Source of the DNA: Methylacidimicrobium sp. AP8
GTDB lineage: Bacteria; Verrucomicrobiota; Verrucomicrobiia; Methylacidiphilales; Methylacidiphilaceae
Assembly (NCBI RefSeq): GCF_903064525.1
Contig: NZ_LR797830.1
Coordinates: 62,001-126,000, forward strand
Length of the DNA stretch: 64,000 nt
Direction: 5' to 3'
How positions within the stretch are numbered: position 1 is the stretch's first letter; each line of letters opens with the position of its first letter. Below, in pieces: positions 4,742 through 45,087 of the stretch. A model generated the notes under the pieces. That model did no database searches. It was not told the DNA's origin and was given only the letters and a program-made list of their open reading frames with translations. A program made the position numbers and the translations under genes.

Positions 4742-7344
4742 CCGTTGCCCTCCGGCTTCGTCCGGAAGAGAAGCTGCCCGTTGTTCCAATCGATCGTGAG
4801 CGCGGTCTTGTCCGGAATTTCTCCGGAGACGATCTTGCGGGAGAGGGGAGTCTCGATCTCCTTCTGGATGACCCGCTTTAGCGGGCGTGCCCCGTAAGTC
4901 GGGCTGTATCCCAAGCGGGCGAGATGCTCCTTGGCGGCCGGGGTCAGCTCGATGGTGATCGACCGCTCCGCCAATCGCTTGCGCAGCTCCTCGAGCTGCA
5001 GATCGACGATCTTCTGGAGCTGCTCCATCTGCAGAGGCTTGAAAAGCACGATCTCGTCGAGCCGGTTGAGAAACTCCGGCCGGAAATGGGCGCGCAGCTC
5101 CTCCATCACGCGGTTCCTCACCGGCTCCGGAATCTCCCCCGAAGGGCCGATCCCTTCGGTCAGATAGACGCTGCCGATGTTGGAGGTCATGACGATGATG
5201 GTGTTGCGAAAATCGACCGTGCGGCCTTGGCTGTCGGTGAGCCGGCCGTCGTCGAGGATCTGGAGGAAGACGTTGAAGACGTCCGGATGGGCTTTCTCGA
5301 CCTCGTCGATGAGGATGACGCTGTAGGGCTTGCGCCGTACCGCCTCGGTCAGTTGGCCCCCCTCTTCGAATCCGACGTACCCCGGAGGGGCGCCGATTAG
5401 GCGAGCAACCTGATGCTTTTCCATGTACTCGCTCATATCGAGCCGGATCATGTTCTCCTCGCTATCGAAGAGCGCTTCGGCCAAGGCCCGGGCGAGCTCG
5501 GTCTTCCCCACGCCGGTGGGCCCCAGAAAGAAGAACGATCCGATCGGCCGCTTGGGATCCTTAAGGCCGGAGCGGGCGCGAATCACGGCGTCGGCGACGG
5601 CGGCGACCGCCTCGTCTTGCCCGACCACTCTCTGGTGAAGGATCGAATCGAGCCGCAGCAGCTTCTCCTTTTCGCCCTCCAGAAGCTTGGACACCGGAAT
5701 CCCGGTCCAGCGGGCGACGACTTCCGCGATCTCCTCCGGGGTCACTTCCTCGCGCAAAAGCCTTCCCTCCGCTTGTCCCTTAGCGAGCTTTTCCTCCAGC
5801 TCCTGGAGGCGCCGCTTCAGCTCGGGAATCCTTCCGTACTGGAGCTCGGCCACCCGGTTGAGATCGTACGACCGTTGGGCGATTTCCATCTCGTGCTCGG
5901 CGGCCTGGAGCTCTTCTCGCACCTTCTGGAGCGCGCCGATCGCCCCCTTCTCCTCTTGCCATCGAGCGCGGACCTGATCCCTTTCGCTCCGCAGGTTGGC
6001 CAGCTCCGCCTCGAGAGCTTCGAGGCGCTTGCGCGAGGCCTCGTCGCGCTCCTTTCGGAGAGCTTCCTTTTCAATCTCGAGCTGGAGCACGCGTCGCTCC
6101 AGCCCTTCGAGCTCCTCCGGCATGCTCTCCATCTCGGCCTTCAGCTTGGCCGCCGCCTCATCCATCAGATCAATCGCCTTGTCCGGGAGGAACCGATCGG
6201 TGATGTATCGATGAGAGAGCACCGCCGCCGCCACCAGGGCGCTGTCTTGGATGCGCACCCCGTGATGGAGCTCGTACCGTTGCCGCAACCCCCGGAGAAT
6301 CGAAATCGTATCCTCCACGGTCGGCTCGGAGACAAGAACCGGCTGGAAGCGGCGCTCCAGAGCGGCGTCCTTCTCGATGTACTTCCGGTACTCGTCCAGG
6401 GTCGTGGCGCCGATGCAGTGAAGCTCTCCGCGCGCCAGGAGCGGCTTGAGCATGTTGCCCGCATCGATCGCGCCCTCCGCCTTGCCGGCTCCCACCATGG
6501 TGTGGATCTCGTCGATAAAGAGAATGATCTGCCCTTCGGCCGCCGTCACTTCCTTGAGCACCGCCTTGAGCCTCTCTTCGAACTCCCCCCGGTACTTGGC
6601 TCCGGCGATCAGCGCCCCCATGTCGAGCTGCACGATCCGCTTGCTCTTCAAGCTCTCCGGTACGTCGCTGGCCGCGATCCGCTGTGCCAATCCTTCGACG
6701 ATGGCGGTCTTGCCGACTCCCGGCTCGCCGATCAGGACCGGGTTGTTCTTCGTCCGTCGCGACAGGACCTGGATCGTGCGGCGGATCTCCGCATCGCGCC
6801 CGATCACCGGGTCGAGCTTCCCTTTTTTCGCGAGTTCCGTCAGGTCTCGCCCATACTTCTGGAGCGCCTCGTAGGTCTCTTCGGGGTTGGGACTGGTGAC
6901 ACGCTGGTGGCCGCGAACTTCCGTCAACGCCTGCAGAAAGGATTCCCGATTGACGGCCGCCTCGCGAAGGAGGCGGCCGGTGACCGTGGAGGAGGGCTCC
7001 TCCAGAAGTGCCAGCATCAGATGCTCGACGCTGACGAACTCATCCTTGAGCCGCTTGGCCTCCTCCTGCGCCTTGACCAGGGCTTCGCGAAGACGCTGGG
7101 TGATATAGGCCCCGGTGTTGGCGCCGGTAACGCGCGGCAGCCGCAAAAGCTCCTGGCCCAGGCGCTCGCGCAGCTGGCCGACGTCGACGCCCGCACGCTC
7201 CAGCAAGCGGGGAACGAGCCCCTGGCCGTCGGCCAAAAGAGCCTCGCAGAGATGCTCCACATCGACCGACTGGTGGGAATGGCGAACGGCTAGATTTTGC
7301 GCTTCGGCGATGGCCGCCTGCGCTTTTTCGGTGAATCGATTCAT
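4738..7344 (-). CDS. clpB: ATP-dependent disaggregase ClpB
   Basis: Hsp100 AAA+ chaperone that works with DnaK/DnaJ/GrpE to extract polypeptides from aggregates. It has 868 residues, close to the family standard of about 860. Order: N-terminal Clp_N repeats (1-145), NBD1 with Walker A GEPGVGKT (about 206-213) and Walker [10 protein letters not shown], the coiled-coil M domain (about 400-525, which distinguishes ClpB from ClpA/C), then NBD2 with [11 protein letters not shown] and [16 protein letters not shown], and the D2-small domain with GARPLKR. No ClpP-docking IGF loop is evident. It is the first gene of a four-gene run. No CIRCE-like inverted repeat was noticed in the 64 bp upstream. Confidence 0.98.
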
Positions 7345-7408
7345 AGAAAAGGCCCGCTGAAGGGAAAGTAGCGGAGGCCGCCGGGAAAGTGCAAAACTTT
7401 TGGTACGG

Positions 7409-7783
7409 CTAGGAAGCTGGCGCGGGCTTACGGAAAAGAGCTTCCAGCCCCACTGCGAGCCAGCCGATGCCCAAGAGGCTTCCGCCGAAGGGTGTGACCC
7501 GGGTCCAGCCGGCGTTTCCCGTGAGAACCCACGCGTACAGGCTTCCGGAGAAGAGCACGATGCCGAGCAGGAAGCAGACGGAAGAGACGGCGAAAGCCTT
7601 GGGGTGGCGGCTTAAGGAGAGAAGGGCTAAAACGTGGACGAACTGGTACAAGACAGCCGTTTTCCAGGTATCCAGCGCGTGGGGGGAGCCGGGCGAGAGA
7701 GAAAGACGGTGCGCGCCGTAGGTCGCCGCGGCGATCCCGAGGAAACCGAGCAGACCCGCGGAAAAAGCCCGAAAACGGTTCAT
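7409..7783 (-). CDS. DUF423 family inner-membrane protein
   Basis: 124-residue integral membrane protein resembling E. coli YgdD. Four hydrophobic helices: about 8-24 ([17 protein letters not shown]), 42-58, 64-86 and 96-116. The family signature AATYGAHRL and the pattern [14 protein letters not shown] are present. The biochemical role of the family is not established. It ends 64 bp before clpB and may share its transcript. It is divergent from the sugar kinase at 7992. Confidence 0.85.
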
Positions 7784-9742: not shown

Positions 9743-9808
9743 CGGAAGGCGACGTCCGCAACGGGAAAGAAATCCGCCTCGGGCGCATTCGAGCAGGAGT
9801 CGGGTCAT
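9683..9808 (-). pseudogene. Truncated 5' end, fifth unit of the tandem family
   Basis: From ATG 9808 the frame reads MTRLLLECARGGFLS, identical to the start of copies 1 and 3. The match to the array ends at 9763, after the 16-bp GGGAAAGAAATCCGCC. The frame then runs into unrelated sequence and the IS21-like end, stopping after 41 codons with no export hydrophobic core. Either this is the stump of a lost copy, or it is the original downstream gene start that donated its 5' end to the array. Confidence 0.7.
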
Positions 9809-9857
9809 CGTCTTGGGCTCCTCCCACGCCAAGGGCAACGTCGCTGCCTCACCCCTT

Positions 9858-10865
9858 TCAATCACCCGAATGTCCGGAGAAGCCCGCCGCAGCGTAGATC
9901 TGCTTGGTAAGCGTGTAGACGGCATCGTGCATTTTCTGATCATGCAAGGCCCGGGCAAGGTCGTTGAGTGCATAGAGCACCTGACTTTGTGGGGAAAAGG
10001 CGATAGCGATCGGCCGGACCGGAGGAAAAATGGCGATGGCGGGCTCGAGATTGGGTCCTTTGGCAAATTGGGCGATCTCTTCCCAAAACCAGCTGGGCAT
10101 CGCGGAAAGCTTCCAAGCAGGTTTATCCGCTATAGGTACACCACCTTCTGCGAACCAAATGTCTCGTAAAACCCCGAGGAACTCCTTTGCCGACCACCAG
10201 TTCTCGAGGACCTGATGGAGCTTTTCCGGCCCCCAGCGGGTGAAGAGCTCGTAATCTTCTTTTAGTTCCCTGGCATTCTCCTCGTCGTATTGGCTTTCGG
10301 GCAGCTGGTTGGCACGAATCGCTTGCGCGTCCTGTAAATCCTGAAGCTCATAGGTGGCCTCCCGCTGCTCCGGAGTCAGATGCGCGAGCCACCAGGCGTC
10401 CCATGCGGCTTCCTCGGTATCGAGAATCTGCTCCTGTTCTTCGTCAGGGAGATCCAAAAATTGCGGGGGGACATCCTTTTGGCTTTGTCCTCGAAGCCTC
10501 AAGAGCGCATCGAGGATCGGAATGGGAAGGGTGGCGAGCTTTCGCTCCAGCTTGCGGATCTCTGTGCGGACAACGAATTTCCCCTCTTCGGTATGCCTAT
10601 CGGTGTGCGGAGTCGACCAGCGGTAGGCCTGATCCATCGCCCACCGTCCTTCGGGAGTCTGAAGGGTTTCGGCAAAGAGCTGCGGGTCGACCGTCTGCAA
10701 AAAAGAAAAGGTTGCGGGCATCCGCAAGGTGGTGAGCTTTTGGATCAAGGCTTGGGCCTCGGGAGAGAGGGGAGCGGATGGTTTGTCCTCTGCAACGGCC
10801 ACGGCGGCAGTCAACCAGAGGGAAAGAAATCCGCCTCGGGCGCATTCGAGCAGGAGTCGGGTCAT
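9858..10865 (-). CDS. Tandem-family exported protein, copy 1
   Basis: 335 residues, no recognised family. N-terminal signal peptide: charged start MTRLLLECARG, hydrophobic core FLSLWLTAAVAVA, likely cleavage AVA/ED at about 23. The mature part is helical, charged and rich in Trp (WDAWWLAHLTPEQR, ENWWSAKEFLG, MPSWFWEEIAQF). It has no cysteine after the signal and no membrane segments, so a soluble periplasmic or secreted protein is likely. The start at ATG 10865 is supported by GGAGGAG 8-9 nt upstream, inside the repeat unit. The frame is open further upstream but crosses the next copy's 3' end. Function unknown. Confidence 0.8.
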   Translation of the reverse strand: MTRLLLECARGGFLSLWLTAAVAVAEDKPSAPLSPEAQALIQKLTTLRMPATFSFLQTVDPQLFAETLQTPEGRWAMDQAYRWSTPHTDRHTEEGKFVVRTEIRKLERKLATLPIPILDALLRLRGQSQKDVPPQFLDLPDEEQEQILDTEEAAWDAWWLAHLTPEQREATYELQDLQDAQAIRANQLPESQYDEENARELKEDYELFTRWGPEKLHQVLENWWSAKEFLGVLRDIWFAEGGVPIADKPAWKLSAMPSWFWEEIAQFAKGPNLEPAIAIFPPVRPIAIAFSPQSQVLYALNDLARALHDQKMHDAVYTLTKQIYAAAGFSGHSGD

Positions 10866-11558
10866 CGTCTTGGGCTCCTCCCACGCCAAGGGCAACGTCG
10901 CTGCCTCACCCCTTTCAATCACCCGAATGTCCGGAGAAGCCCGCCGCAGCGTAGATCTGCTTGGTAAGCGTGTAGACGGCATCGTGCATTTTCTGATCAT
11001 GCAAGGCCCGGGCAAGGTCGTTGAGTGCATAGAGCACCTGACTTTGTGGGGAAAAGGCGATAGCGATCGGCCGGACCGGAGGAAAAATGGCGATGGCGGG
11101 CTCGAGATTGGGTCCTTTGGCAAATTGGGCGATCTCTTCCCAAAACCAGCTGGGCATCGCGGAAAGCTTCCAAGCAGGTTTATCCGCTATAGGTACACCA
11201 CCTTCTGCGAACCAAATGTCTCGTAAAACCCCGAGGAACTCCTTTGCCGACCACCAGTTCTCGAGGACCTGATGGAGCTTTTCCGGCCCCCAGCGGGTGA
11301 AGAGCTCGTAATCTTCTTTTAGTTCCCTGACATCATCCTCGGCGTATTGGCTTTCGGGCAGCTGGTTGGCACGAATCGCTTGCGCGTTCTGTAAATCCTG
11401 AAGCTCATAGGTGGCCTCCCGCTGCTCCGGAGTCAGATGCGCGAGCCACCAGGCGTCCCATGCGGCTTCCTCGGTATCGAGAATCTGCTCCTGTTCTTCG
11501 TCAGGGAGATCCAAAAATTGCGGGGGGACATCCTTTTGGCTTTGTCCTCGAAGCCTCA

Positions 11559-13377
11559 CCCATCTTCCGCACAATTTTGAGGATTGTTTCGGCAGATGAA
11601 GGACTTACGCAAAATAATGTAGGACGTGTAATGCGAATACAATGTGAATAACATTTGTTTGCATAAGCATCATGCTCTTGGCATATTGTAGGCATGTACG
11701 TGCAAGAGGTGCGCACTTGCCAGAGGGGCAAAGTCTACCGATCCGTTCTTGTCCGGGAGTCGTATCGGGTGGGCAAGCAGGTCAAGACGAGGATCCTGTC
11801 CAATCTGACCCGGATGCCGGTGGAGGTCCAGCAGGCGGTCCGAGCGCTGCTGCAGGGGAAGAAGCTGGTGCCCCTGGACGGACTGGAAGGGCAGGAAGCT
11901 CTGGATTACGGAGGAATCGCGGTCCTCGAGCAAGCGTGGCAGCGATTTGGACTCGATCAGGTTCTTTCCGGGGTGGGTTCGGAGCGGAAGGGGCGGCTTT
12001 TGAAAGCGATGATCTTTGGACGGATTCTCTTTCCCTCTTCCAAGCTCGCCCTTCGGGAGGAAGCAGGCGGGACGCTTTTGGCTAAGGTATGCGGGCTGGA
12101 GGAGAAGGACCTGGAAGAAGACGATCTCTACCGGGCGATGGATGGGCTCAACGGCGTTTGGAGCGGGATCGAGAAGAAGCTTTACCGGGAAGCCCAACCA
12201 GAGGGAGCGAGCTTGGTGCTCTATGACCTTTCGAGTGTCTACTTCGAGGGGACGGCCCCGAGGGGATTGGCGCAGTACGGCTACAGCCGGGATCACCGGC
12301 AAGATCGGCGGCAGGTGCTTCTTGCGGTCGCCACCGATGCCCGGGGGATCCCGATCCATGTGGAGGTCCTGCGGGGGAACCGGGCGGACAGCACGACGCT
12401 GACGGGGCTCTTGGTGACTCTCAGACGCCGACTCGGGATCCGAGAGGCTACCTTCGTCTTCGATGGCGGGATGAAGAGCCGGTGGAATCTGGAGATGCTC
12501 ACCGGCATGGAGCTTGAGTACGTGACCCGATCAACTGGGACCAAGCTCCAGGAGATCGTTCGGCGACTTCCCAAAGATCGGCAGCTCTGGCTGACGGATC
12601 GAACCCGGGTGATGGAGATCGAGCACCAAGGGGTTCGCTACGTCGTTGCCGGAGGGGAGTGGCGCGCGATGCGCGATCGGGAGCGGCGGCAGAGCCGCAT
12701 CGCCCGAGGAGAGGAAGAGCTGCGCCAGATTGCCAAGGCAACGCGCAAGGGGGCAGACCCAGTCGAGCTCGGCAGCCGGATCGGCCGGGCGCTCCAGCGG
12801 ATCCAGGCCCATAAGTACTTTCAGTATGGAGTCGACGCCAAGGGCCGGTTCTGGTGGAAGCTTGACCAAGAGCGGGTCAAAGAAGAAGAGGCGATCGACG
12901 GCTGGTATCTTTTGGAGACCAACCTCCCGTCCGCCAAGGCTTCTCCTCAGGAGGTGCTGACCCACTACAAGCGGCTCGCAGAGGTCGAGGCCGCTTTTTC
13001 AGAACTCAAGAGCTACCTCGAAGTCCGTCCGGTCTATCATTGGCGGCCCGATCGGGTCCGCAACCACGTGAGAATCTGCTTCTTGGCTTTCTGGATGAAT
13101 GCCCGCCTCAGGACCGAATGGGTGGCCAAAGGGTTTACCGAAGAGGTGCCCAAGGTGCTCCGCCGCCTTCAGGCGATCCGCTTGATCCGGCTTGCCCCAA
13201 ACGGACGGCCTTTGATCGGGTTCTTCTCCAAGATCCCCGCCGACATCAACCCACTGCTCCAAAAGCTCGACCTCCTCCCCCTCTTTGCTCGCCCGCCCAA
13301 ATGGGCCATGTAGGCAGAACGAAAAAGTCTTAACGTTCTGCTACAATCACTTGCGACACTACACAGCGGAAGTTCGG
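11559..13377 (+). mobile_element. Complete IS1634-type insertion sequence (about 1,819 bp)
   Basis: Boundaries come from comparing the interrupted copy 2 with intact copies. Host sequence AAGCCTCAAGAGCG is split with direct repeat CTCA on both sides (11555-11558 and 13378-13381). The ends form imperfect inverted repeats: left CCCATCTTCCGC, right (reverse complement) CCGAACTTCCGC. It holds one full-length transposase on the plus strand, opposite to the host gene. The 4-bp duplication is shorter than the 5-6 bp usual for this family. Confidence 0.9.
11694..13313 (+). CDS. IS1634-family DDE transposase
   Basis: 539-residue transposase with RNase H-like DDE core. Candidate catalytic residues: D178 in VLYDLSSVYFEG, D257 in FVFDGGMKSRW, and E432 in YKRLAEVEAAFSELK, the Y-R-E-K region of the IS4/IS1634 group. 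GYSRDHRQDRRQ and VLRGNRADSTTL are typical IS1634 signatures. The gene looks intact and begins 135 bp inside the element, so the IS could still be active. The insert's youth is supported by the preserved host reading frame on both sides. Confidence 0.93.
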   Translation: MYVQEVRTCQRGKVYRSVLVRESYRVGKQVKTRILSNLTRMPVEVQQAVRALLQGKKLVPLDGLEGQEALDYGGIAVLEQAWQRFGLDQVLSGVGSERKGRLLKAMIFGRILFPSSKLALREEAGGTLLAKVCGLEEKDLEEDDLYRAMDGLNGVWSGIEKKLYREAQPEGASLVLYDLSSVYFEGTAPRGLAQYGYSRDHRQDRRQVLLAVATDARGIPIHVEVLRGNRADSTTLTGLLVTLRRRLGIREATFVFDGGMKSRWNLEMLTGMELEYVTRSTGTKLQEIVRRLPKDRQLWLTDRTRVMEIEHQGVRYVVAGGEWRAMRDRERRQSRIARGEEELRQIAKATRKGADPVELGSRIGRALQRIQAHKYFQYGVDAKGRFWWKLDQERVKEEEAIDGWYLLETNLPSAKASPQEVLTHYKRLAEVEAAFSELKSYLEVRPVYHWRPDRVRNHVRICFLAFWMNARLRTEWVAKGFTEEVPKVLRRLQAIRLIRLAPNGRPLIGFFSKIPADINPLLQKLDLLPLFARPPKWAM

Positions 13378-13792
13378 CTCAAGAGCGCATCGAGGATCGG
13401 AATGGGAAGGGTGGCGAGCTTTCGCTCCAGCTTGCGGATCTCTGTGCCGATAACGAATTTCCCCTCTTCGGTATGCCTATCGGTGGGAGTCGACCAGCGG
13501 TAGGCCTGATCCATCGCCCACCGTCCTTCGGGAGTCTGAAGGCTTTCGGCAAAGAGCTGCGGGTCGACCGTCTGCAAAAAAGAAAAGGTTGCGGGCATCC
13601 GCAAGGTGGTGAGCTTTTGGATCAAGGCTTGGGCCTCGGGAGAGAGGGGAGCGGATGGTTTGTCCTCTGCAACGGCCACGGCGGCAGTCAACCAGAGGGA
13701 AAGAAGTACGCCTCGGGCGCATTCGAGCAGGAGTCGGGTCATCGTCTTGGGCTCCTCCCACGCCAAGGGCAACGTCGCTGCGGAATCCTCTT

Positions 13793-14800
13793 TCAATCAC
13801 CCGAATGTCCGGAGAAGCCCGCCGCAGCGTAGATCTGCTTGGTAAGCGTGTAGACGGCATCGTGCATTTTCTGATCATGCAAGGCCCGGGCAAGGTCGTT
13901 GAGTGCATAGAGCACCTCACTTTGTGGGGAAAAGGCGATAGCGATCGGCAGAACCGGAGGAAAAATGGCGATGGCGCGCTCGAGATTGGGTCCTTTGGCA
14001 AATTGGGCGATCTCTTCCCAAAACCAGCTGGGCATCGCGGAAAGCTTCCAAGCAGGTTTATCCGCTAAAGGTGCACCACCTTCTGCGAACCAAACGTATC
14101 GCAAAACCCCGAGGAACTCCTTTGCCGACCACCAGTTCTCGAGGACCTGATGGAGCTTTTCCGGACCCCAGCGGGTGAAGAGCTCGTAATCTTCTTTTAG
14201 TTCCCTGGCATTCTCCTCGTCGTATTGGCTTTCGGGCAGCTGTCGGGCACGAATCGCTTGCGCGTTCTGTAAATCCTGAAGCTCATAGGTGGCCTCCCGC
14301 TGCTCCGGAGTCAGATGCGCGAGCCACCAGGCGTCCCAGACGGCTTCCTCGGTATCGAGAATCTGCTCCCGCTCTTCCTCAGGGAGATCCGAAAATTGCG
14401 GGGGGACATCCTTTTCGCTTTGTCCTCGAAGCCTCAAGAGCGCATCGAGGATCGGAATGGGAAGGGTGGCGAGCTTTCGCTCCAGCTTGCGGATCTCTGT
14501 GCGGACAACGAATTTCCCCTCTTCGGTATGCCTATCGGTGTGCGGAGTCGACCAGCGGTAGGCCTGAGCCATCGCCCACCGTCCTTCGGGAGTCTGAAGG
14601 GTTTCGGCAAAGAGCTGCGGGTCGACCGTCTGCAAAAAAGAGAAGGTTGCGGGCATCCGGAGGGTGGTAAGCCTTTCGATCAAGGCTTGGGCCTCGGGAG
14701 AGAGGGGAGCGGATGGTTTGTCCTCTGCAACGGCCACGGCGGCAGTCAACCAGAGGGAAAGAAATCCGCCTCGGGCGCATTCGAGCAGGAGTCGGGTCAT
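13793..14800 (-). CDS. Tandem-family exported protein, copy 3
   Basis: 335 residues, the same chimeric start as copy 1 (MTRLLLECARG, then FLSLWLTAAVAVA/ED) and the same GGAGGAG site. It differs from copy 1 by scattered substitutions, for example QSEKDVPPQFSDLPEEEREQ for QSQKDVPPQFLDLPDEEQEQ and APLADK for VPIADK. Some of these are shared with copy 4, so the copies have exchanged segments or diverged in steps. The frame is fully open, with no frameshift. The product is likely exported; its function is unknown. Confidence 0.8.
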   Translation of the reverse strand: MTRLLLECARGGFLSLWLTAAVAVAEDKPSAPLSPEAQALIERLTTLRMPATFSFLQTVDPQLFAETLQTPEGRWAMAQAYRWSTPHTDRHTEEGKFVVRTEIRKLERKLATLPIPILDALLRLRGQSEKDVPPQFSDLPEEEREQILDTEEAVWDAWWLAHLTPEQREATYELQDLQNAQAIRARQLPESQYDEENARELKEDYELFTRWGPEKLHQVLENWWSAKEFLGVLRYVWFAEGGAPLADKPAWKLSAMPSWFWEEIAQFAKGPNLERAIAIFPPVLPIAIAFSPQSEVLYALNDLARALHDQKMHDAVYTLTKQIYAAAGFSGHSGD

Positions 14801-14849
14801 CGTCTTGGGCTCCTCCCACGCCAAGGGCAACGTCGTTGCCTCACCCCTT

Positions 14850-15857
14850 TCAATCACCCGAATGTCCGGAGAAGCCCGCCGCAGCGTAGATCTGCTTGGT
14901 AAGCGTGTAGACGGCATCGTGCATTTTCTGATCATGCAAGGCCCGGGCAAGGTCGTTGAGTGCATAGAGCACCTGACTTTGTGGGGAAATGGTGATAGCG
15001 ATCGGCCGGACCGGAGGAAAAAGGGCGATGGCGCGCTCGAGATTGGGTCCTTTGGCAAATTGGGCGATCTCTTCCCAAAACCAGCTGGGCATCGCGGAAA
15101 GCTTCCAAGCAGGTTTATCCGCTAAAGGTGCACCACCTTCTGCGAACCAAATGTCTTGTAAAACCCCGAGGAACTCCTTTGCCGACCACCAGTTCTCGAG
15201 GACCTGATGGAGCTTTTCCGGCCCCCAGCGGGTGAAGAGCTCGTGATCTTCTTTTAGTTCCCTGACATCATCCTCGGCGTATTGGCTTTCGGGCAGCTGG
15301 TTGGCACGAATCGCTTGCGCGTACCGTAAATCCTGAAGCTCATAGGTGGCCTCCCGCTGCTCCGGAGTCAGATGCGCGAGCCACCAGGCGTCCCATGCGG
15401 CTTCCTCGGTATCGAGAATCTGCTCCCGCTCTTCCTCAGGGAGATCCGAAAATTGCGGGGGGACATCCTTTTCGCTTTGTCCTCGAAGCCTCAAGAGCGC
15501 ATCGAGGATCGGAATGGGAAGGGTGGCGAGCTTTCGCTCCAGCTTGCGGATCTCTGTGCGGACAACGAATTTCCCCTCTTCGGTATGCCTATCGGTGTGC
15601 GGAGTCGACCAGCGGTAGGCCTGATCCATCGCCCACCGTCCTTCGGGAGTCTGAAGGGTTTCGGCAAAGAGCTGCGGGTCGACCGTCTGCAAAAAAGAAA
15701 AGGTTGCGGGCATCCGCAAGGTGGTGAGCTTTTGGATCAAGGCTTGGGCCTCGGGAGAGAGGGGAGCGGATGGTTTGTCCTCTGCAACGGCCACGGCGGC
15801 AGTCAACCAGAGGGAAAGAAATCCGCCAAGCCATTGGTGACGGAAAATGGTCTTCAT
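14850..15857 (-). CDS. Tandem-family exported protein, copy 4 (probable founder)
   Basis: 335 residues. It differs from the other copies in the first ten residues (MKTIFRHQWL) and in upstream sequence, then joins the common GGFLSLWLTAAVAVAED signal peptide. It lies 20 bp downstream of the EreA/ChaN-like gene, with its own AGGAG 8-12 nt before ATG 15857, so it fits a normal operon position and is probably the original gene. The mature protein has the same Trp-rich helical character as the other copies. No family recognised. Confidence 0.82.
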   Translation of the reverse strand: MKTIFRHQWLGGFLSLWLTAAVAVAEDKPSAPLSPEAQALIQKLTTLRMPATFSFLQTVDPQLFAETLQTPEGRWAMDQAYRWSTPHTDRHTEEGKFVVRTEIRKLERKLATLPIPILDALLRLRGQSEKDVPPQFSDLPEEEREQILDTEEAAWDAWWLAHLTPEQREATYELQDLRYAQAIRANQLPESQYAEDDVRELKEDHELFTRWGPEKLHQVLENWWSAKEFLGVLQDIWFAEGGAPLADKPAWKLSAMPSWFWEEIAQFAKGPNLERAIALFPPVRPIAITISPQSQVLYALNDLARALHDQKMHDAVYTLTKQIYAAAGFSGHSGD

Positions 15858-15877
15858 GGTTTCTTCTCCTTGTCCTC

Positions 15878-17317
15878 CTATGGACCTTGCGGCACCGAGC
15901 TTGCCCTGCGATTGACCGCCTCGGAAAGAGAGTGGTCGATCGGTTTTCCCGACAAGGGGTCGTAGGGCGTGCGACCCGGATCGAGCGCAATGTTCGCAGC
16001 TGCTTGCTGGTTGCGTTGGGACACAATTGCCTGCACCTGCTGGGGAGTCAAATGGGGAATGGGTGGCGCCGGTTGCCCTGGTTGCGCCGGTGGCGAAAAA
16101 TATCCCAAGCCCAGTTCGGCCAAAAAACCTTGGGGGGTGATGGCACTCTGTACAATGGCAACCGAAGGGATGTGATAGATGTTCTCCAATAGGTAGTTGA
16201 GTCCGGGATAGATCTCGTTCGGCTTGCTCGTTGTCGCAATCCGCTCATTGGGGAGGAATCCCATGTGGGAGACTCCCCCAATGACAATGGTTCGGGCGTT
16301 CGGCTTGGTGACCTGGGCCGCAAACGCGGCAATGCTCAGGTTTCGATCCTTCATTCCCCGTGGGGACGCCAAAAACCTCATCAATTCAGCGTCTGTGACT
16401 GGCCGGCTGGGGGAATTCACGATTAGGTTCCCGTTCTGGTCCAGTCCGATATTCCGGTCGAGGTCGCCTCCGATTACCTTGTATCCTGTCTTGTAGAAGT
16501 GGCGCCAGAGGCGAAACATTTGCATCTGTGCTCGGAGACCATCGATGGCCTCTGGATCCACGCCGTTCGCCATCGCGAACGCTTGCGCCGCGCTGCGGGT
16601 CAGTGAGTCAACCTTTTGAAGGATTACCGCATACCTCTTTATGAGGTTGCTGTGTTTTTTTCGATCCCGATTCCCATTCGGATCGTCCGGCGCGTACCCA
16701 GAGGCAAGCTCGGCCATGTTCTGGTAGCTCGGATCTTTCAGAAACCGGTCGAGCTGCTTCTGCTTGGCGGCGGGATACTCGAGGATCACGTTTCGGAATC
16801 CGTGGGTATAGGCTGAGTCGGCGAACCTTTCTTCGGCCTGCATCTGCTCGGGAGTGAAATGAAATTCTCCAAGGCCGACGCACTGGATGCCCGCCTTGTC
16901 GAGGGCGGCCCAATTGCTCTTGTCGGCCTGGGTGATCGGGTTTTGCCCGGGAGGCAAGGGGGAGATCGGCGCGCCGGCGGGGGCCGCGGTTTGTCCCGGG
17001 CCTGACGAAGAGCTTTGGAGAGCGGTTGCCGCGGCGGCGGCCGCCGCCGCTGTGCCCATCTGGGTGCCTATCGCCGCTCCTTCCGCAGCCGTGCTCTCGG
17101 CCGTCTGGGCCGCCGCCTGCGGCGCGGCCTGGTCGGTTCCCTCGGGATTGGCGGGAGAAGGAGCGCAGGGGTCGCCGCAGGGGGGAGCGGTCAGAGCGGC
17201 GGGGGCCTCCCCATTGGGGGCGGCTTCCGGAGGGGCGACGCAAACCTGCCCATAGCTCCTCAAGCCCCCCGCGAAGGCCAAAGGACGGTCGCCCGCAGCA
17301 GGAGGCCAGAACGGCAA
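15878..17317 (-). CDS. EreA/ChaN/TIKI-superfamily-like protein with Ala/Pro-rich leader
   Basis: Up to 479 residues. The N-terminal ~130 residues are low-complexity Ala/Pro/Gly. The remainder shows the spaced motifs of the EreA/ChaN/TIKI fold: GEFHF (150-154), VILEYP (E180), VIGGDLD (about 281-287), and IGGVSHMG (346-353). These Glu/His residues form the active or haem-binding site in relatives, which include erythromycin esterases, haem-binding ChaN and TraB/Tiki proteases; which activity applies is unclear. The only canonical start in frame is a TTG at 17317 without a good signal peptide. An ATG at 17334 in another frame encodes a signal-like MRPKAFCRSGLLLRATVLW and would join this frame after a +1 change in the C6 run at 17265-17270. 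Confidence 0.6.
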   Translation of the reverse strand: MPFWPPAAGDRPLAFAGGLRSYGQVCVAPPEAAPNGEAPAALTAPPCGDPCAPSPANPEGTDQAAPQAAAQTAESTAAEGAAIGTQMGTAAAAAAAATALQSSSSGPGQTAAPAGAPISPLPPGQNPITQADKSNWAALDKAGIQCVGLGEFHFTPEQMQAEERFADSAYTHGFRNVILEYPAAKQKQLDRFLKDPSYQNMAELASGYAPDDPNGNRDRKKHSNLIKRYAVILQKVDSLTRSAAQAFAMANGVDPEAIDGLRAQMQMFRLWRHFYKTGYKVIGGDLDRNIGLDQNGNLIVNSPSRPVTDAELMRFLASPRGMKDRNLSIAAFAAQVTKPNARTIVIGGVSHMGFLPNERIATTSKPNEIYPGLNYLLENIYHIPSVAIVQSAITPQGFLAELGLGYFSPPAQPGQPAPPIPHLTPQQVQAIVSQRNQQAAANIALDPGRTPYDPLSGKPIDHSLSEAVNRRASSVPQGP

Positions 17318-37473: not shown

Positions 37474-38445
<972 letters not shown>

Positions 38446-38542
38446 CGGAATCCTGGAAAATCCGCATGCCCCGGACACGAGGCCCGCGCGGATCGGTTGA
38501 TTATTACTTTCGAGGCGCCGGAAAACGCAAGTCTTCGGTCAT

Positions 38543-39339: not shown

Positions 39340-41595
39340 ATGGAAACGGAGACGGGGCGCGTGCTTACGGCGCGCAGCGGATCGAATCTCGCCGCTGCGT
39401 TCTTCTGCTTGCCGCGGGAGAGGCGGCAGGCAATGGCCGTCTTCTACGGGTTCTGCCGGGTGGTGGACGACGTGGCCGATTCCTCGTCCCTCTCGCTTGT
39501 CGAAAAGCAGGAGGGGATCGCGTTTTGGCGGGCCGAGATCGATCGGGCATACCGGGGAACGCCACGCTCCACGCTCGGCAAGGAGCTGGCGCCGGTCGTT
39601 CGGCGGTACCGGGTCGCCCGGGAGCTGCTCGAGGAGGTGGTCAACGGCGTCGAGATGGACCTGCGGCAGAGCCGATACCGGACATTTGCCGAGCTTGCGG
39701 TCTACTGCCGGCGGGTCGCCGGTGCTGTGGGACTGGTCAGCATCGAGATCTTCGGCTGCCGGAGGCCCGAGAGCCGCTGCTACGCCGAGGACCTGGGGAT
39801 GGCCTTTCAGCTCACCAACATTCTGCGGGACATCCGGAAGGATGCCGCCGCCGGCAGGGTATACCTGCCGGAAGAGGAGCTCGCCGAGTTCGGGCTCGGA
39901 CTCGAGGATGTCCTTCAGGGCCGGTGGAGTCCGCGGATGCGGGATCTCTGCCTCTTCCAATGCCTGCGGGCCGAGCACTACTTCGCTCGCTCGCGCCGGT
40001 GGATCCATCCCGAGGATCGGAGGAAGCTGGTCGCCTCCGAAGCGATGCGCGCGGTCTACAAGGCGATCCTCGATAAGATCCGCAAGGCGGATTTCCGGAT
40101 TTTCTCCGGGGCGGGCCGGATGGGAAGGCTTGAGCGCGCCCTCCGAATGGCGGCCGCACTCCTTGCTTTCGCCCGGGACCGGCAGCTTCCCTGGAATCCG
40201 CCGCGGCAAGTGGTCATCCTCGGCGCCGGGCTGGCCGGGATGGCGGCGGCGGTGGAGGCGACCTTGGCGGGCGATCGGGTCATGCTTCGGGAGGCGCGGG
40301 CGGAAGCCGGAGGGCGGGCGGGCAGCTTCGTCGAGGTCAAGACCGGGGAGAAGCTCGACACCGGACAGCACCTGCTGATGGGGTGCTACCGGGAGACTCT
40401 CCGGTTGCTCCGCACTCTGGGCGCGGAGCGGAAGCTGCTCTGGATCGAGCCGCTGCGGATTCCCTTTCGCAGTGCCCGGGGAACGAGCCTACTGGCGGCT
40501 TGGCCTCTTCCCGCCCCCTGGCATCTGTTGGGGGCCTTGATCGGCTATCGGGAGATTGCTTGGAGCGACCGGCTGGCGGCCATCCGGCTGATCGGCTCGC
40601 TCATCCTTGGGCGCGAGCCTCTCGAGGAAGAAACCGCCGAGAGCTGGCTCCGGCGGATGGGGCAGCCGCGAGGGATCGTCCGAGCGCTTTGGGAGCCTCT
40701 GTGCCTCGCCGCCTGCAACCAGGAGATCCGCCGCGCGTCCGCCCGCATGCTGGCGATCGTCATCCGCCGGGCGCTCTTGGGGAACCGCAAGGGCTCGGCC
40801 CTGATCCTCTGCCGCGGCAATCTCGGCGAGCTTTTGGCGGTCGAGTGCGCCCGGCTTCTCCGTTATTGCGGGGGGAGGCTCGTCTGCCGCTCGCCGGTGA
40901 GCCGGCTCGTATTTGCCGGCGACCGGGTGGCGGCGATCGAGGATCGGTCCGGGGAGCGTTGCGAGGTCGATCAGCTGGTGAGCGCCCTTCCGTGGCATTC
41001 CCTCCGCTCCCTCCTGCCCGAGGAGAGCCGGCTCCAAAGGATCTGCCGGTCGATCGGAGAGGAAACGATCGTCAATCTCTATCTCTGGACCGATCGGCCG
41101 CTCACGGACGAGACGGTGGTCGGCTTTCTCGACTCGACCGTCCATTGGCTCTTTTCGCGCGAAAAGATCCTGGGGAGGGCCTCCCCTTGCGGCCATGCCT
41201 ACGCGGCGGTGATCAGCGCCGCGCGCTCCTGGAAAGAGCTTTCCCGAGAGGCGGTGGCCGATCGCGTGATGGAAGAGCTCCGCCGGCGGCTGCCGGAAGC
41301 CGCCGAGGCTCGGCTCCTCCATTCCTTCCTCTATCGGGCGCACGCGGGCACTCCCTCTTTGGGCCCGGCCGAATGCGCGCGGCGACCCGGGTCCCGGAGC
41401 GAATGGCGCAACCTTTGGCTTGCTGGAGATTGGACAAACACCGGTCTCCCCGCCACCATCGAGGGAGCTGTCCAGAGCGGGATTTCTGCGGTTCGGACGA
41501 TGAACGGAGCGGCGGATGATAAGGTGGCATCGCCTCTGGTATCCGGCGGCGGGTGCGCGATGGAGGAGGCGGGGAAGGAGGGCATGGTCTCATGA
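39340..41595 (+). CDS. hpnD-hpnE: Fused presqualene diphosphate synthase (HpnD) and hydroxysqualene dehydroxylase (HpnE)
   Basis: 751 residues combining two enzymes of the bacterial squalene route. Residues 1-285: squalene/phytoene-synthase fold with Asp-rich motifs DDVAD (43-47) and QLTNILRDIRKDA (158-170), plus the AVYCRRVAGAVGL helix. Residues 290-735: FAD amine-oxidase-like domain with the Rossmann motif ILGAGLAGMAAA (294-305), EAGGRAGSF, TGQHLLMGCY and the C-terminal LWLAGDWTNTGLPATIEGAVQSG. Start ATG 39340 fits the domain start. No hpnC lies nearby. The following gene is coupled by ATGA. A squalene product is inferred, and the downstream squalene-hopene cyclase is not in the window. Confidence 0.88.
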   Translation: METETGRVLTARSGSNLAAAFFCLPRERRQAMAVFYGFCRVVDDVADSSSLSLVEKQEGIAFWRAEIDRAYRGTPRSTLGKELAPVVRRYRVARELLEEVVNGVEMDLRQSRYRTFAELAVYCRRVAGAVGLVSIEIFGCRRPESRCYAEDLGMAFQLTNILRDIRKDAAAGRVYLPEEELAEFGLGLEDVLQGRWSPRMRDLCLFQCLRAEHYFARSRRWIHPEDRRKLVASEAMRAVYKAILDKIRKADFRIFSGAGRMGRLERALRMAAALLAFARDRQLPWNPPRQVVILGAGLAGMAAAVEATLAGDRVMLREARAEAGGRAGSFVEVKTGEKLDTGQHLLMGCYRETLRLLRTLGAERKLLWIEPLRIPFRSARGTSLLAAWPLPAPWHLLGALIGYREIAWSDRLAAIRLIGSLILGREPLEEETAESWLRRMGQPRGIVRALWEPLCLAACNQEIRRASARMLAIVIRRALLGNRKGSALILCRGNLGELLAVECARLLRYCGGRLVCRSPVSRLVFAGDRVAAIEDRSGERCEVDQLVSALPWHSLRSLLPEESRLQRICRSIGEETIVNLYLWTDRPLTDETVVGFLDSTVHWLFSREKILGRASPCGHAYAAVISAARSWKELSREAVADRVMEELRRRLPEAAEARLLHSFLYRAHAGTPSLGPAECARRPGSRSEWRNLWLAGDWTNTGLPATIEGAVQSGISAVRTMNGAADDKVASPLVSGGGCAMEEAGKEGMVS

Positions 41596-42152
41596 GCAGG
41601 AGATGGTGGGTGTTCGTCGGCGTGTGCTGGGCCGGTCTGGTCGGGGGGATGGGAAGCTCTCTCCGCGGGGCGGAGGGCGCGGCCGGCTTCGAAGCGGAGT
41701 TCCAAAACGTGGGCAGCACTCTTCGGAAGGCCCCGCTTCCGGAGTATCCCGGCCTCGTCGACCAGAGGCTTCGGCCGCTCTTGCGCCGGGTGCGCGCCGC
41801 GCTCCTCGAAGAGGGGCCCAAGGCGGAAGCGACGATGCGGGCGGTGCTTTCGGGGGCGAAGGAGCTACTGGCCATCGAGGACGTGGAGGCGGCCATGCTG
41901 ACCGCCTACGCGGTCTCCGCCAGGCCGGAGCTGGTCGTTCGCGTGCTGCGCGCCCTGCCGGAGGCGGACCGGGAGGAGCTCGCCTTTTACCTCTTCGTCG
42001 GAACGTCGAGCTGCGGGGAAGGGGATCCGCGCAAGCCTTCCCTCCTTCGCTTGGAGCTGGCGATGGCGCCCCTGCTCGACGAGCTGATCCTCAAGGCCGA
42101 CGAGGAAGCCGCCGCCGAGGCGCAAGCCTCGGGAAGCCGTTCCCGCAAATAG
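41592..42152 (+). CDS. Exported protein of unknown function
   Basis: 186 residues; start ATG 41592 overlaps the hpnD-hpnE stop (ATGA). The N-terminus is signal-like (RRWWVFVGVCWAGLVGGMGSSLRGAEG), with likely cleavage near LRGAEG. The mature part is helical and acidic with no recognised domain; a lone Cys occurs in GTSSCGEG. Coupling suggests co-expression with squalene synthesis, but no biochemical link can be shown. Confidence 0.65.
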   Translation: MSRRWWVFVGVCWAGLVGGMGSSLRGAEGAAGFEAEFQNVGSTLRKAPLPEYPGLVDQRLRPLLRRVRAALLEEGPKAEATMRAVLSGAKELLAIEDVEAAMLTAYAVSARPELVVRVLRALPEADREELAFYLFVGTSSCGEGDPRKPSLLRLELAMAPLLDELILKADEEAAAEAQASGSRSRK

Positions 42153-42198: not shown

Positions 42199-44973
42199 TC
42201 AGAAGTTGATCTGGACCGTGCCCTGGATCCAGAAAGGGAGCTGCGCGACGATGTAGTCGTAATTCATGAAGCGTGCATTGCTGAACCCGGGCGCTCCCGG
42301 CAGCCAATACTGCTCATTGGTTAGGTTGTAGATGTAGAGGCTCGCTTCCCACCGCTTAGTGGCGTAGAAGAGGCGGGCGTTGAGGGTGTACCAGGTGGGA
42401 ATCCGGGTGGAATAGGTGTAGAAGATAAAATTTCCGCTCTCCGTGTTCCCCCAGAGGGAGATGCCGAAGCCGTTGTCGAACTTGTAGGTCGCCATCAGGT
42501 TGCCGTAGTTGGTCGGAAAGCCGATGAACGGATAGTTGGCCGGAGGGAGGTTGACCATCGGATCGACGGGCAGGCCGTACTGGCGGGCGACCGAGGTCGA
42601 GTAGGGCTGCTCCGCCAAGGGTCCTTGCGGGAGGCCTGCCCACTGCTCCTGCGCGGCGATGTAAGCGTAGCCGAAGTTGAGCCAAAAGTTCCGGTTGGGC
42701 TGGTAGCTGCCGGTGAGCTGGATCCCTTGGATGTCCGCTTGGGCCGTGGCGATCGGCCCCCCGGGGATGACCTGTGCGGGGATGTAGCCGCTCTGCATGT
42801 AGGCGGAGAAGCCGAGGAAGAGCCGGTCGTGCAGGAGGTCGAGCTTCGTTCCCAGCTCGTAGAGAAAGTTGTTTTGATGGTAGTAGTCGGAGGGATAGGA
42901 GGGCCCGAAGCTCCCGAACTGGCTCAATAGGGTAGTCTGTCCGTAGAAGAAGGTGAAGTAGTTGGTCATCCACGGGAAGAGCTTATAGCTGGGGCTGATC
43001 GAGACCTCGGGCTGGACGATGCTCATCGAGGTCGGCGTCAAAGGCGGAAGTCCGAGCGCGGGGGCCGCGGCCGAAATCTCGGCCGGAGTCCCCGGCGGCG
43101 GGGAAGCTTCGATGAAGTAGGCGTTCATCCGGCCCGAGAGCAGGAGGCTCCACTGGTCGGTGAAGTCGAGCTTGTGCTGGTAGAAGGGCGAGACCTCGTA
43201 AAAGGTGTCGGCGGTCGACAAGTAGTTGAAGACGTTGTAGTAGGCGCCCGGGTAGCCGGGGACCGGAATATCGGTAAGATACGGGTTCTGGTAAATCGGG
43301 CCGATCGCCTGGGCGAAGGAGACCAGCGGGGAAAATTCCCTCGCGGTGAGCGGCTGGGTCAGGTTCCAGATGTTGATCGGCGAGTGCCAGACGCCGGAAT
43401 ACTCGGTGTCGCTGAAATAGCGAAACTCGAGGCCCGCATCGATCATGTGGTGGAGCTTCCATCCGCCGCCGGACGCTCCTTCCGCGGTCTGGTCTAAGGA
43501 GGGAGCGGGCTTCTTTCCCTTCCCGATCGGAGTGTCGAAAGAGGCGCGTAGCTCGAGGCGATCGTCGAAGTCGTAGCCCGCCGGCAGCACGGCCCAGAAG
43601 GTGGACGGAATCGCCTGATCGATAAAGGTGCTGAAATATTCGAACATCGAGTTGTTCACGAGCGAGAGGTTGTCGTCGATCTTGAGCGTTTCGATCGCCT
43701 GGGCGACATAGTAGAGCTGCTGGGTCGAGTTCTCGGAGTTGGCGAAGAGGTTCGTCCGGCGGCTGATCGGCACCTGCGGTCCCCAGTTCATCGCGTAGCC
43801 GGCGCCGGGCGGGGCGGTGCCCAGCCCCGGGTGCAGGACGCCCGGGGGGCCGTACCAGCCGACTAGGGAGCCGGTCTGATAAAGGCCGTCGCTGATCAGG
43901 GCCTGGTCGGGGCGGTTGAGCCCGGCGACCGTGTTAAGGTGGTTGACGTCGAACTCGGTGTTGAAGTCAATCGAGAGGTTGTCGTAGGGCTTGGCGGAGA
44001 GGGCGAGGTAGGCGCACTGGCGCTGGAGGTAGGCACCGTCATAGTAGTTGTAAGGAGCGTAGCCGTCCTGTCCGAAGTAATCGACGCGGTAGGCGAGCTT
44101 GTCCTTGAGGATGGGCCCTCCGATGTCGATGTTCCAGAAGTTCGTGCTGTACATTCCGCCCGTGTAGCTCGCGCTTCCCCGGAACTGGTCGAAATAGGGC
44201 TGCTTGGTGACCTCGTTGGCGAATCCTCCCGCCATCTCCTGGGGGCCGAAGACGATGCTGACCGGCCCGGTGACCACGTCGAGGTTGTCGTAGGCGTTCA
44301 TGTTCATGAGCGGTCCCCACTGGGCCGACTGGCTGAAGCCGACGAGCATCCCGTTCCGGTAGGCTGTTGCCGGAAGGCCGCGGATGACGGGTTCCGAAAC
44401 GGGGCTGCCGGTCATCTGCGTCGGATTGACCCCGGGGACGAAGGCGGCCAGATCGTTGACCGACTGGGCGTTGATGGTCTGCATCTCCTCCTTGTTCACT
44501 ACTTGGACGGTCCGAGGAGTCTCCATGACGCTCATTTCGGGGCCGAGCACCCCGACCGGTTCCTCGGCCGGAACGACCGTCTCGTAGGGAGCGGAGCCTG
44601 CGACGGGGACCTCGCCGAGGACCGGGCCGAGCCCGGCGGGCAGCTCCCCTCCCGGTAAGGGGCCCGGCGGAGCCGTGATGGGCGGGGCGGCTTCCGAGGG
44701 GGTGCGGTCGGAGCGGCGGCCCCGGGATTCGGAGGTGGCGGCGCCTCGCCGGAAGGCACCGCGGGTTTGCTTCCGGGGCCTCCGGAGCGCTTTCGGCCGG
44801 GGTGCCGGGGTGCTCTCCGCCGGTTGGTCGGCGGCCCCGGAAGGTGCTGCCTCCGCGGCGGGAGCGGGGCCGGCGGCAGGGTCGGCGCCTAGGGCCGGAG
44901 TCCGGAGCCCGGCGAAGAGGAGGAGCCCGGTAAGGGCGGAGGCCGCAGTTTGCTCGAGGCGGGAGCGGCGCAT
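42199..44973 (-). CDS. TonB-dependent outer-membrane receptor
   Basis: 924 residues from ATG 44973, which places the signal peptide at the N-terminus (ALTGLLLFAGLRTPALGA); an in-frame ATG at 45048 adds a leader. A long Pro/Ala and Arg-rich linker (about 26-125) precedes the plug: METPRTVQVVNKEEMQTINA, VNDLAAFVPGVNPTQMTG, VIRGLPATAYRNGMLVGF and VDVVTGPVSIVFGP-like sequence. The 22-strand barrel ends in an aromatic VQINF. The frame is intact. It lies 114 bp after tonB on the same strand. The ligand is unknown; large barrels of this type import siderophores, metals or glycans. Confidence 0.9.
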   Translation of the reverse strand: MRRSRLEQTAASALTGLLLFAGLRTPALGADPAAGPAPAAEAAPSGAADQPAESTPAPRPKALRRPRKQTRGAFRRGAATSESRGRRSDRTPSEAAPPITAPPGPLPGGELPAGLGPVLGEVPVAGSAPYETVVPAEEPVGVLGPEMSVMETPRTVQVVNKEEMQTINAQSVNDLAAFVPGVNPTQMTGSPVSEPVIRGLPATAYRNGMLVGFSQSAQWGPLMNMNAYDNLDVVTGPVSIVFGPQEMAGGFANEVTKQPYFDQFRGSASYTGGMYSTNFWNIDIGGPILKDKLAYRVDYFGQDGYAPYNYYDGAYLQRQCAYLALSAKPYDNLSIDFNTEFDVNHLNTVAGLNRPDQALISDGLYQTGSLVGWYGPPGVLHPGLGTAPPGAGYAMNWGPQVPISRRTNLFANSENSTQQLYYVAQAIETLKIDDNLSLVNNSMFEYFSTFIDQAIPSTFWAVLPAGYDFDDRLELRASFDTPIGKGKKPAPSLDQTAEGASGGGWKLHHMIDAGLEFRYFSDTEYSGVWHSPINIWNLTQPLTAREFSPLVSFAQAIGPIYQNPYLTDIPVPGYPGAYYNVFNYLSTADTFYEVSPFYQHKLDFTDQWSLLLSGRMNAYFIEASPPPGTPAEISAAAPALGLPPLTPTSMSIVQPEVSISPSYKLFPWMTNYFTFFYGQTTLLSQFGSFGPSYPSDYYHQNNFLYELGTKLDLLHDRLFLGFSAYMQSGYIPAQVIPGGPIATAQADIQGIQLTGSYQPNRNFWLNFGYAYIAAQEQWAGLPQGPLAEQPYSTSVARQYGLPVDPMVNLPPANYPFIGFPTNYGNLMATYKFDNGFGISLWGNTESGNFIFYTYSTRIPTWYTLNARLFYATKRWEASLYIYNLTNEQYWLPGAPGFSNARFMNYDYIVAQLPFWIQGTVQINF

Positions 44974-45087
44974 GGGCGTAGTTAGGGTAAGGCGCGCGTC
45001 GGACGGCTTGAGCCTCTCTGTTCCGGAAAGGGCTTCCTTGTCAACCATTCTAAGGGCGGAGGAAGCCCTTCCGGCACGGAGGCTCGG

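Follow-up and report, generated by a model that had tools for sequence, protein, structure and literature searches.

An HpnD–HpnE fusion gene in Methylacidimicrobium sp. AP8 and its distribution in the class Verrucomicrobiia

In the HpnCDE pathway, as described in the passages of PMC5462960 that cite Pan et al. (2015), HpnD yields presqualene diphosphate, HpnC yields hydroxysqualene and HpnE reduces hydroxysqualene to squalene. The canonical operon, exemplified by plasmid NZ_CP054625.1 of Cupriavidus gilardii, carries three separate genes in the order hpnC–hpnD–hpnE, of which hpnD and hpnE share 28 bases, read in different frames. Fusions of related enzymes include (i) HpnCD, found in subdivision 2 Acidobacteria and in some Actinobacteria and Alphaproteobacteria according to PMC5462960, and (ii) thraustochytrid CrtIBY, encoded by a fused crtI–crtB–crtY gene (PMC5924542). 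The closest study in terms of organism group and genes is PMC9543262, whose passages on hpnCDE in acidophilic verrucomicrobial methanotrophs treat these genes as a canonical set, propose that they were gained with acid adaptation and do not mention a fusion. Searches of the open-access literature brought up no mention of an HpnD–HpnE fusion, which does not prove absence.

The window analysed here is a 64,000-nucleotide stretch, bases 62001–126000 of the one-contig 2.30-Mb genome of Methylacidimicrobium sp. AP8 (rated 99.89% complete), for which the closest named genomes, at about 80% protein identity, come from Methylacidimicrobium species and from Methylacidiphilaceae MAGs. Compared to the C. 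gilardii operon, the three predicted activities are the same (identities of 39% for the HpnD domain, 29% for the HpnE domain and 39% for HpnC), but HpnD and HpnE form one chain and hpnC lies about 242 kb away. As in HpnCD, a single gene encodes two enzymes of the same pathway; however, HpnCD joins steps 1 and 2 by means of two homologous SQS_PSY domains, whereas HpnDE joins two unrelated folds and, since HpnC performs the middle step, the non-consecutive steps 1 and 3. CrtIBY likewise combines a phytoene-synthase-type and a desaturase-type domain, i.e. the same two superfamilies as HpnDE, but it is a eukaryotic C40 carotenoid enzyme with the desaturase first, consecutive steps and an additional cyclase. 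As far as these papers describe them, the related-pathway fusions thus join consecutive steps, unlike HpnDE.

The hpnDE gene, its domains and its junction

The features of the locus, in window coordinates, are as follows.
39340..41595, + strand: hpnDE fusion gene, 751 aa, ATG start, TGA stop, zero internal stops
39367..40152, + strand: HpnD (presqualene diphosphate synthase) domain, residues 10–271, from TIGR03465, PF00494 and fold
39466..39480, + strand: first Asp-rich motif, D43-D44-x-x-D47, invariant in 25/25 aligned fusions
39829..39843, + strand: second Asp-rich motif, D164-x-x-x-D168, invariant in 25/25 aligned fusions
40177..40206, + strand: junction coil, residues 280–289 of the predicted model
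40210..41496, + strand: HpnE (hydroxysqualene dehydroxylase) domain, residues 291–719, from TIGR03467 and fold
40222..40239, + strand: GxGxxG dinucleotide (FAD) binding motif, residues 295–300, invariant in 25/25 fusions

The gene (C1:101340–103595 in the genome) is one stop-free frame in which both domains are matched, as the initial annotation had read it. Its ATG start is backed by two relatives (L018 and L019), in which the open frame extends merely 18 amino acids further upstream. In the product, Pfam places SQS_PSY at residues 11–256 and Amino_oxidase at residues 298–721. The N-terminal domain scores 277.4 bits with TIGR03465 (model span 2–262 of 267), 1.2 bits short of the 278.6-bit equivalog cut-off; for comparison, a stand-alone HpnD-like relative of the same class scores 277.1 bits. 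The HpnD model nevertheless ranks well ahead of those of HpnC (166.8 bits) and CrtB (151.5 bits), and a tree places the fused domain with HpnD, apart from HpnC. There is one SQS_PSY domain in the chain, so that the protein is not an HpnCD fusion. The C-terminal domain scores 375.6 bits with TIGR03467, well over the equivalog cut-off of 283.05 (model span 1–426 of 430).

The residues G295, G297, G300 and E318 are invariant in the 25 aligned fusions, and the invariant GxGxxG and E318, together with a match to structure 5mog, identify the HpnE domain as an FAD-binding fold of the amine-oxidase type. We take D43–D47 and D164–D168 to be the Asp-rich motifs with the role known from the squalene/phytoene synthase family, and the segment 295–300 presumably has the FAD role known from its own family. 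From these matches we infer the catalytic activities and the product: the N-terminal domain would convert two farnesyl diphosphates into presqualene diphosphate, and the C-terminal FAD domain would convert hydroxysqualene into squalene.

Two findings could have undone the fusion as annotated, namely an interruption of the frame between the domains, by a stop or a frameshift, and a separate paralogue with the activity; neither was seen. The fusion is intact in 13/13 genomes of the family, from three genera and with 47–83% identity outside the source genome, which excludes a sequencing or frame error, and with it an assembly artefact. Stops flagged within some homologous matches fall at the C-terminal end of the gene, not at the junction, in the five loci reached by alignment. 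As for paralogues, SQS_PSY proteins number exactly two in the complete genome, HpnC being the one other than the fusion, and no HpnE match above 39 bits was seen besides the fusion.

The fusion was folded with a mean pLDDT of 88.5 and a pTM of 0.89, from an alignment in which only six of the 65 rows were fused. In the predicted model, the last HpnD helix (263–279) and the first HpnE strand (290–294) leave only a short joint. The linker had been proposed to be short and to lie at about 285–290; its shortness holds, while the coil at 280–289 puts the junction slightly earlier. Fold searches showed that the HpnD half is helical and resembles CrtM-type and HpnC structures (Z 28–31), and that the HpnE half resembles phytoene desaturase 5mog (Z 39.7, rmsd 2.3, 431 residues aligned). 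Among the chains listed, none spans both domains as one enzyme of this kind, which does not imply that such a chain is absent.

The distance from the anchor to GxGxxG ranges from 25 to 33 residues in 52 fusions versus 12 to 51 in 28 stand-alone pairs. The special length constraint that these figures evoke was dropped after a length-variability control on 44 fusions (L116, L137 and L119 left out): ranked from least to most variable, the junction came 583rd out of 657 windows. It is also poorly conserved, with a mean top-residue frequency of 0.36 versus 0.63 in the D domain and 0.57 in the E domain (44 fusions). A junction this variable argues against a finely tuned passage or interface and for a simple tether or neutrality.

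Distribution and origin of the fusion

A survey of the fusion, as had been suggested with the annotation, was run on the order and on a class sample of 384 genomes taken from a larger group. The fusion is real, conserved and lineage-wide. Besides all 13 Methylacidiphilaceae genomes (three genera), a match crossing the junction was found in 57 of the 62 genomes of the order; the two halves lie on different contigs in G023, which cannot be judged, and G014, G029, G032 and G048 gave no match at 1e-40. Further fusions occur in 14 genomes from six additional families (f18, f21, f24, f28, f46 and f60), giving 15 families in the class sample. HpnE scores above cut-off in 64 class genomes, in 63 of which it sits in a frame of 717–1065 aa, the remaining one (G023) starting at a contig edge; no split-back, stand-alone HpnE above cut-off was seen in the sample. 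One genome, G037, has a second, stand-alone HpnE-like gene beside its fusion (C53:195518–196840; 227.7 bits, below cut-off).

The fusion is therefore a clean lineage marker for the class, and surveys that tally hpnD and hpnE separately, or that file the protein under a single name, will miscount. Because HpnE above cut-off was seen in the class essentially only in fused form, and the fusion in 15 families, the distribution appears to fit inheritance within the class better than the recent gain linked to acid tolerance proposed in the passages of PMC9543262. That non-consecutive steps are linked in what is essentially the sole above-cut-off form of HpnE in the class also makes the fusion more than an isolated curiosity.

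Beyond the class, the survey was confined to Acidobacteriota, Myxococcota and 63 loci of named genomes. Five of the 63 named loci are fused, all of them from Methylacidiphilaceae; wherever the remaining loci contain both genes, these are separate neighbours, mostly after hpnC. This layout and that of the C. gilardii plasmid bear out the earlier statement that hpnC, hpnD and hpnE are usually separate neighbours; a plasmid search returned a single match, with separate genes. Matches at 1e-90 or below were found in 74 of 297 Acidobacteriota genomes, seven of them crossing the junction and all seven with a stop there, and 22 of 329 Myxococcota genomes matched, with three matches crossing the junction and each containing a stop. 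None of these 74 and 22 matching genomes has a stop-free D–E fusion; among the genomes surveyed, this class alone yielded true fusions. At ten loci of other phyla, D and E lie in the same frame and are kept apart at the junction by one or two stops. Neighbours that are sometimes one stop from fusing suggest that the ancestral layout was one of neighbouring genes.

The ten same-frame loci also agree with a selectively neutral fusion, in which a stop was lost between co-transcribed in-frame neighbours and the fused state was fixed by descent with no functional gain, and so does the poor conservation of the junction. Against it stands a fused state kept across 15 families with no split-back HpnE above cut-off; we regard neutrality as a serious contender, at somewhat less than even odds.

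The trees, from which L115, L080, L088, L089 and L110 were excluded as partial or near-copies, point to one origin for most of the fusions. The HpnD tree unites 46 of 47 fused rows in a single clade (SH-aLRT 92), whose sister group consists of stand-alone HpnD-like proteins from other families in the class (SH-aLRT 96 for the joint clade). The genes of this sister group, L138–L143, have neither HpnC nor HpnE alongside. The full HpnE tree groups 44 of the 47 fused rows (SH-aLRT 100) and places the two f60 rows and G070 (L137) elsewhere on long branches. A reduced HpnE tree, in which 16 of the 99 rows (eight fused and eight stand-alone, either long-branch rows or near-copies, including the aberrant fusion L137 and, on long branches, the stand-alone rows L072, L055 and L064) were dropped, puts all 39 remaining fused rows, f60 included, on one side of a branch (99.9). 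We read the main fusion group as being of one origin. The position of the f60 rows and G070 off this group in the full tree leaves room for a second origin, which G070 may represent. The G070 fusion (L137, 2213–4465, family f18) combines diverged HpnD-like and HpnE-like domains, both below cut-off, and lies near ispH in a genome with no HpnC above cut-off.

The position of hpnC, taken from coordinates read by eye, separates Methylacidiphilaceae from the rest. Among the 59 fusion genomes from other families, 47 have hpnC immediately upstream of the fusion and three more have it 1.0–1.2 kb upstream, the remaining nine having it unlinked or not allowing a judgement; in Methylacidiphilaceae it is upstream in 0/13 genomes and elsewhere in 13/13. 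Therefore, hpnC–hpnDE is likely to be the starting layout, and hpnC to have moved in Methylacidiphilaceae. The main fusion group would thus have arisen by a single joining of the neighbours hpnD and hpnE within an hpnC–hpnD–hpnE operon of the class, the departure of hpnC in Methylacidiphilaceae coming later.

HpnC, the order of steps and the role of the fusion

The initial annotation noted that no hpnC is adjacent and suggested looking for hpnC and shc elsewhere. The first point is correct locally, but the genome carries an intact HpnC gene some 242 kb from the fusion, at C1:345335–346270 (311.8 bits, cut-off 250.45) and next to genes for a dephospho-CoA kinase and a HisJ-like protein, which rules out absence of HpnC from the genome. 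The squalene–hopene cyclase is encoded at C1:322670–324733 (725.3 bits, cut-off 431.1), preceded by a farnesyl diphosphate synthase gene (341 bits, cut-off 275) and followed by an HpnG-like gene that scores below its own cut-off. With the fusion, HpnC and these two genes, the route from farnesyl diphosphate to hopene is fully encoded, at three places. All three enzymes of the HpnCDE pathway are thus encoded, outside the single hpnC–hpnD–hpnE cluster that is usual though not strictly required; with hpnC unlinked, operon-style coordination of the three genes is lost.

HpnC is retained well beyond this genome: of the 72 genomes with the fusion, G023 included, 69 have an HpnC that scores above cut-off. 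The other three are G013 and G041, with partial matches of about 200 bits, and G070, with 174 bits. In G041, HpnC, D and E share a 1038-aa frame; a triple fusion was rejected there, since the HpnC part switches frame midway and appears to be a broken or mis-sequenced hpnC.

These data bear on two suggestions made with the annotation, that the steps may run in a different order and that hydroxysqualene may be channelled between the two fused sites. The former rested on a missing HpnC; with HpnC intact in the same genome and in nearly all the others, no changed order is indicated. The latter finds no support either: hydroxysqualene is the product of HpnC, not HpnD, so that a direct hand-over from D to E would be expected only with HpnC placed between the two. 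Such a hand-over could occur if HpnDE were a complete squalene synthase whose HpnD domain takes on the HpnC step as well, and one may quote in its favour the short junction between two active sites and the unlinked HpnC of all 13 family genomes. The conservation of HpnC, its gene lying directly upstream of the fusion in most genomes outside the family, and the presqualene diphosphate reported as the HpnD product in PMC5462960 make this very unlikely.

A role in C30 carotenoid rather than hopanoid synthesis seems equally improbable. Both domains are related to CrtM-type and carotenoid desaturase structures, and the genome has a CrtI/CrtD-like gene at another locus; yet the HpnE score is far above its cut-off, the CrtI/CrtD-like protein falls under all the curated cut-offs shown, and the genome contains the complete HpnC and squalene–hopene cyclase set.

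Most likely, the fusion performs the ordinary HpnC–HpnD–HpnE chemistry with D and E tethered. The separate HpnC would convert presqualene diphosphate into hydroxysqualene between the two reactions of the fusion, and the cyclase would take squalene on to hopanoids. Overall, we favour, with a probability of roughly 0.82, an HpnDE protein in charge of steps 1 and 3 and a separate HpnC, the main fusion group having a single origin in the class and hpnC having been relocated later in Methylacidiphilaceae. The likeliest benefit of the tether, if any, would be a fixed 1:1 expression and the co-location of both end enzymes, while HpnC carries out the step in between. Active channelling in HpnDE is conceivable, and a new activity is not indicated.

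Co-location could go further if HpnC docked on HpnDE, with presqualene diphosphate and hydroxysqualene passing from D to C to E inside a complex. That the fused steps are non-consecutive and the middle enzyme nearly always kept speaks for such docking, and the pTM of the predicted model is consistent with a defined domain arrangement; on the other hand, the junction is one of the more variable parts of the protein, by length as well as by sequence, and the model, which drew on few fused rows, was that of the fusion chain without HpnC. We consider docking conceivable but doubtful. Slightly more speculative still is the combined proposal that HpnDE is a bookend scaffold holding HpnC, with three steps and two greasy intermediates in one complex, and that the diverged G070 fusion is perhaps an independent squalene or C30 synthase. 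By leaving step 2 outside, the fusion offers a clear test case for HpnC working within a complex, and for squalene production it provides a part in which two enzymes are already combined.

Neighbouring genes and other loci

Directly behind the fusion, with an ATGA overlap at its stop, lies a 186-aa ORF with a signal-like N-terminus (41592–42152, + strand). It has no Pfam or NCBIfam match and is found at the same place, with 71–76% identity, in the other Methylacidimicrobium loci compared. Scanning for promoters and terminators revealed no promoter-like site, and terminators were no more numerous than in shuffled sequences; Rfam found two tRNAs and nothing else.

Upstream, at 37474–38478 (– strand), is a gene for a protein of the deoxyhypusine-synthase family that scores under the cut-offs of all named subfamilies, homospermidine biosynthesis included. 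Downstream, at 42199–45048 (– strand), a 949-aa TonB-dependent receptor-like protein has a long Pro/Ala-rich N-terminal part and matches Pfam by its plug domain only. Direct repeats of at least 300 bases, spaced by 1057 bases and 97–100% alike in most copies, occupy about 9763–15896; they contain two near-identical 390-aa frames and flank an IS1634 transposase gene (11694–13313) on both sides. Elsewhere in the genome, at L014, the CrtI/CrtD-like protein of 640 aa is encoded at 5622–7544, preceded by a transposase gene of the IS3 type; upstream, at 1167–2642, is the gene for a type I-G Cas3-extension protein.
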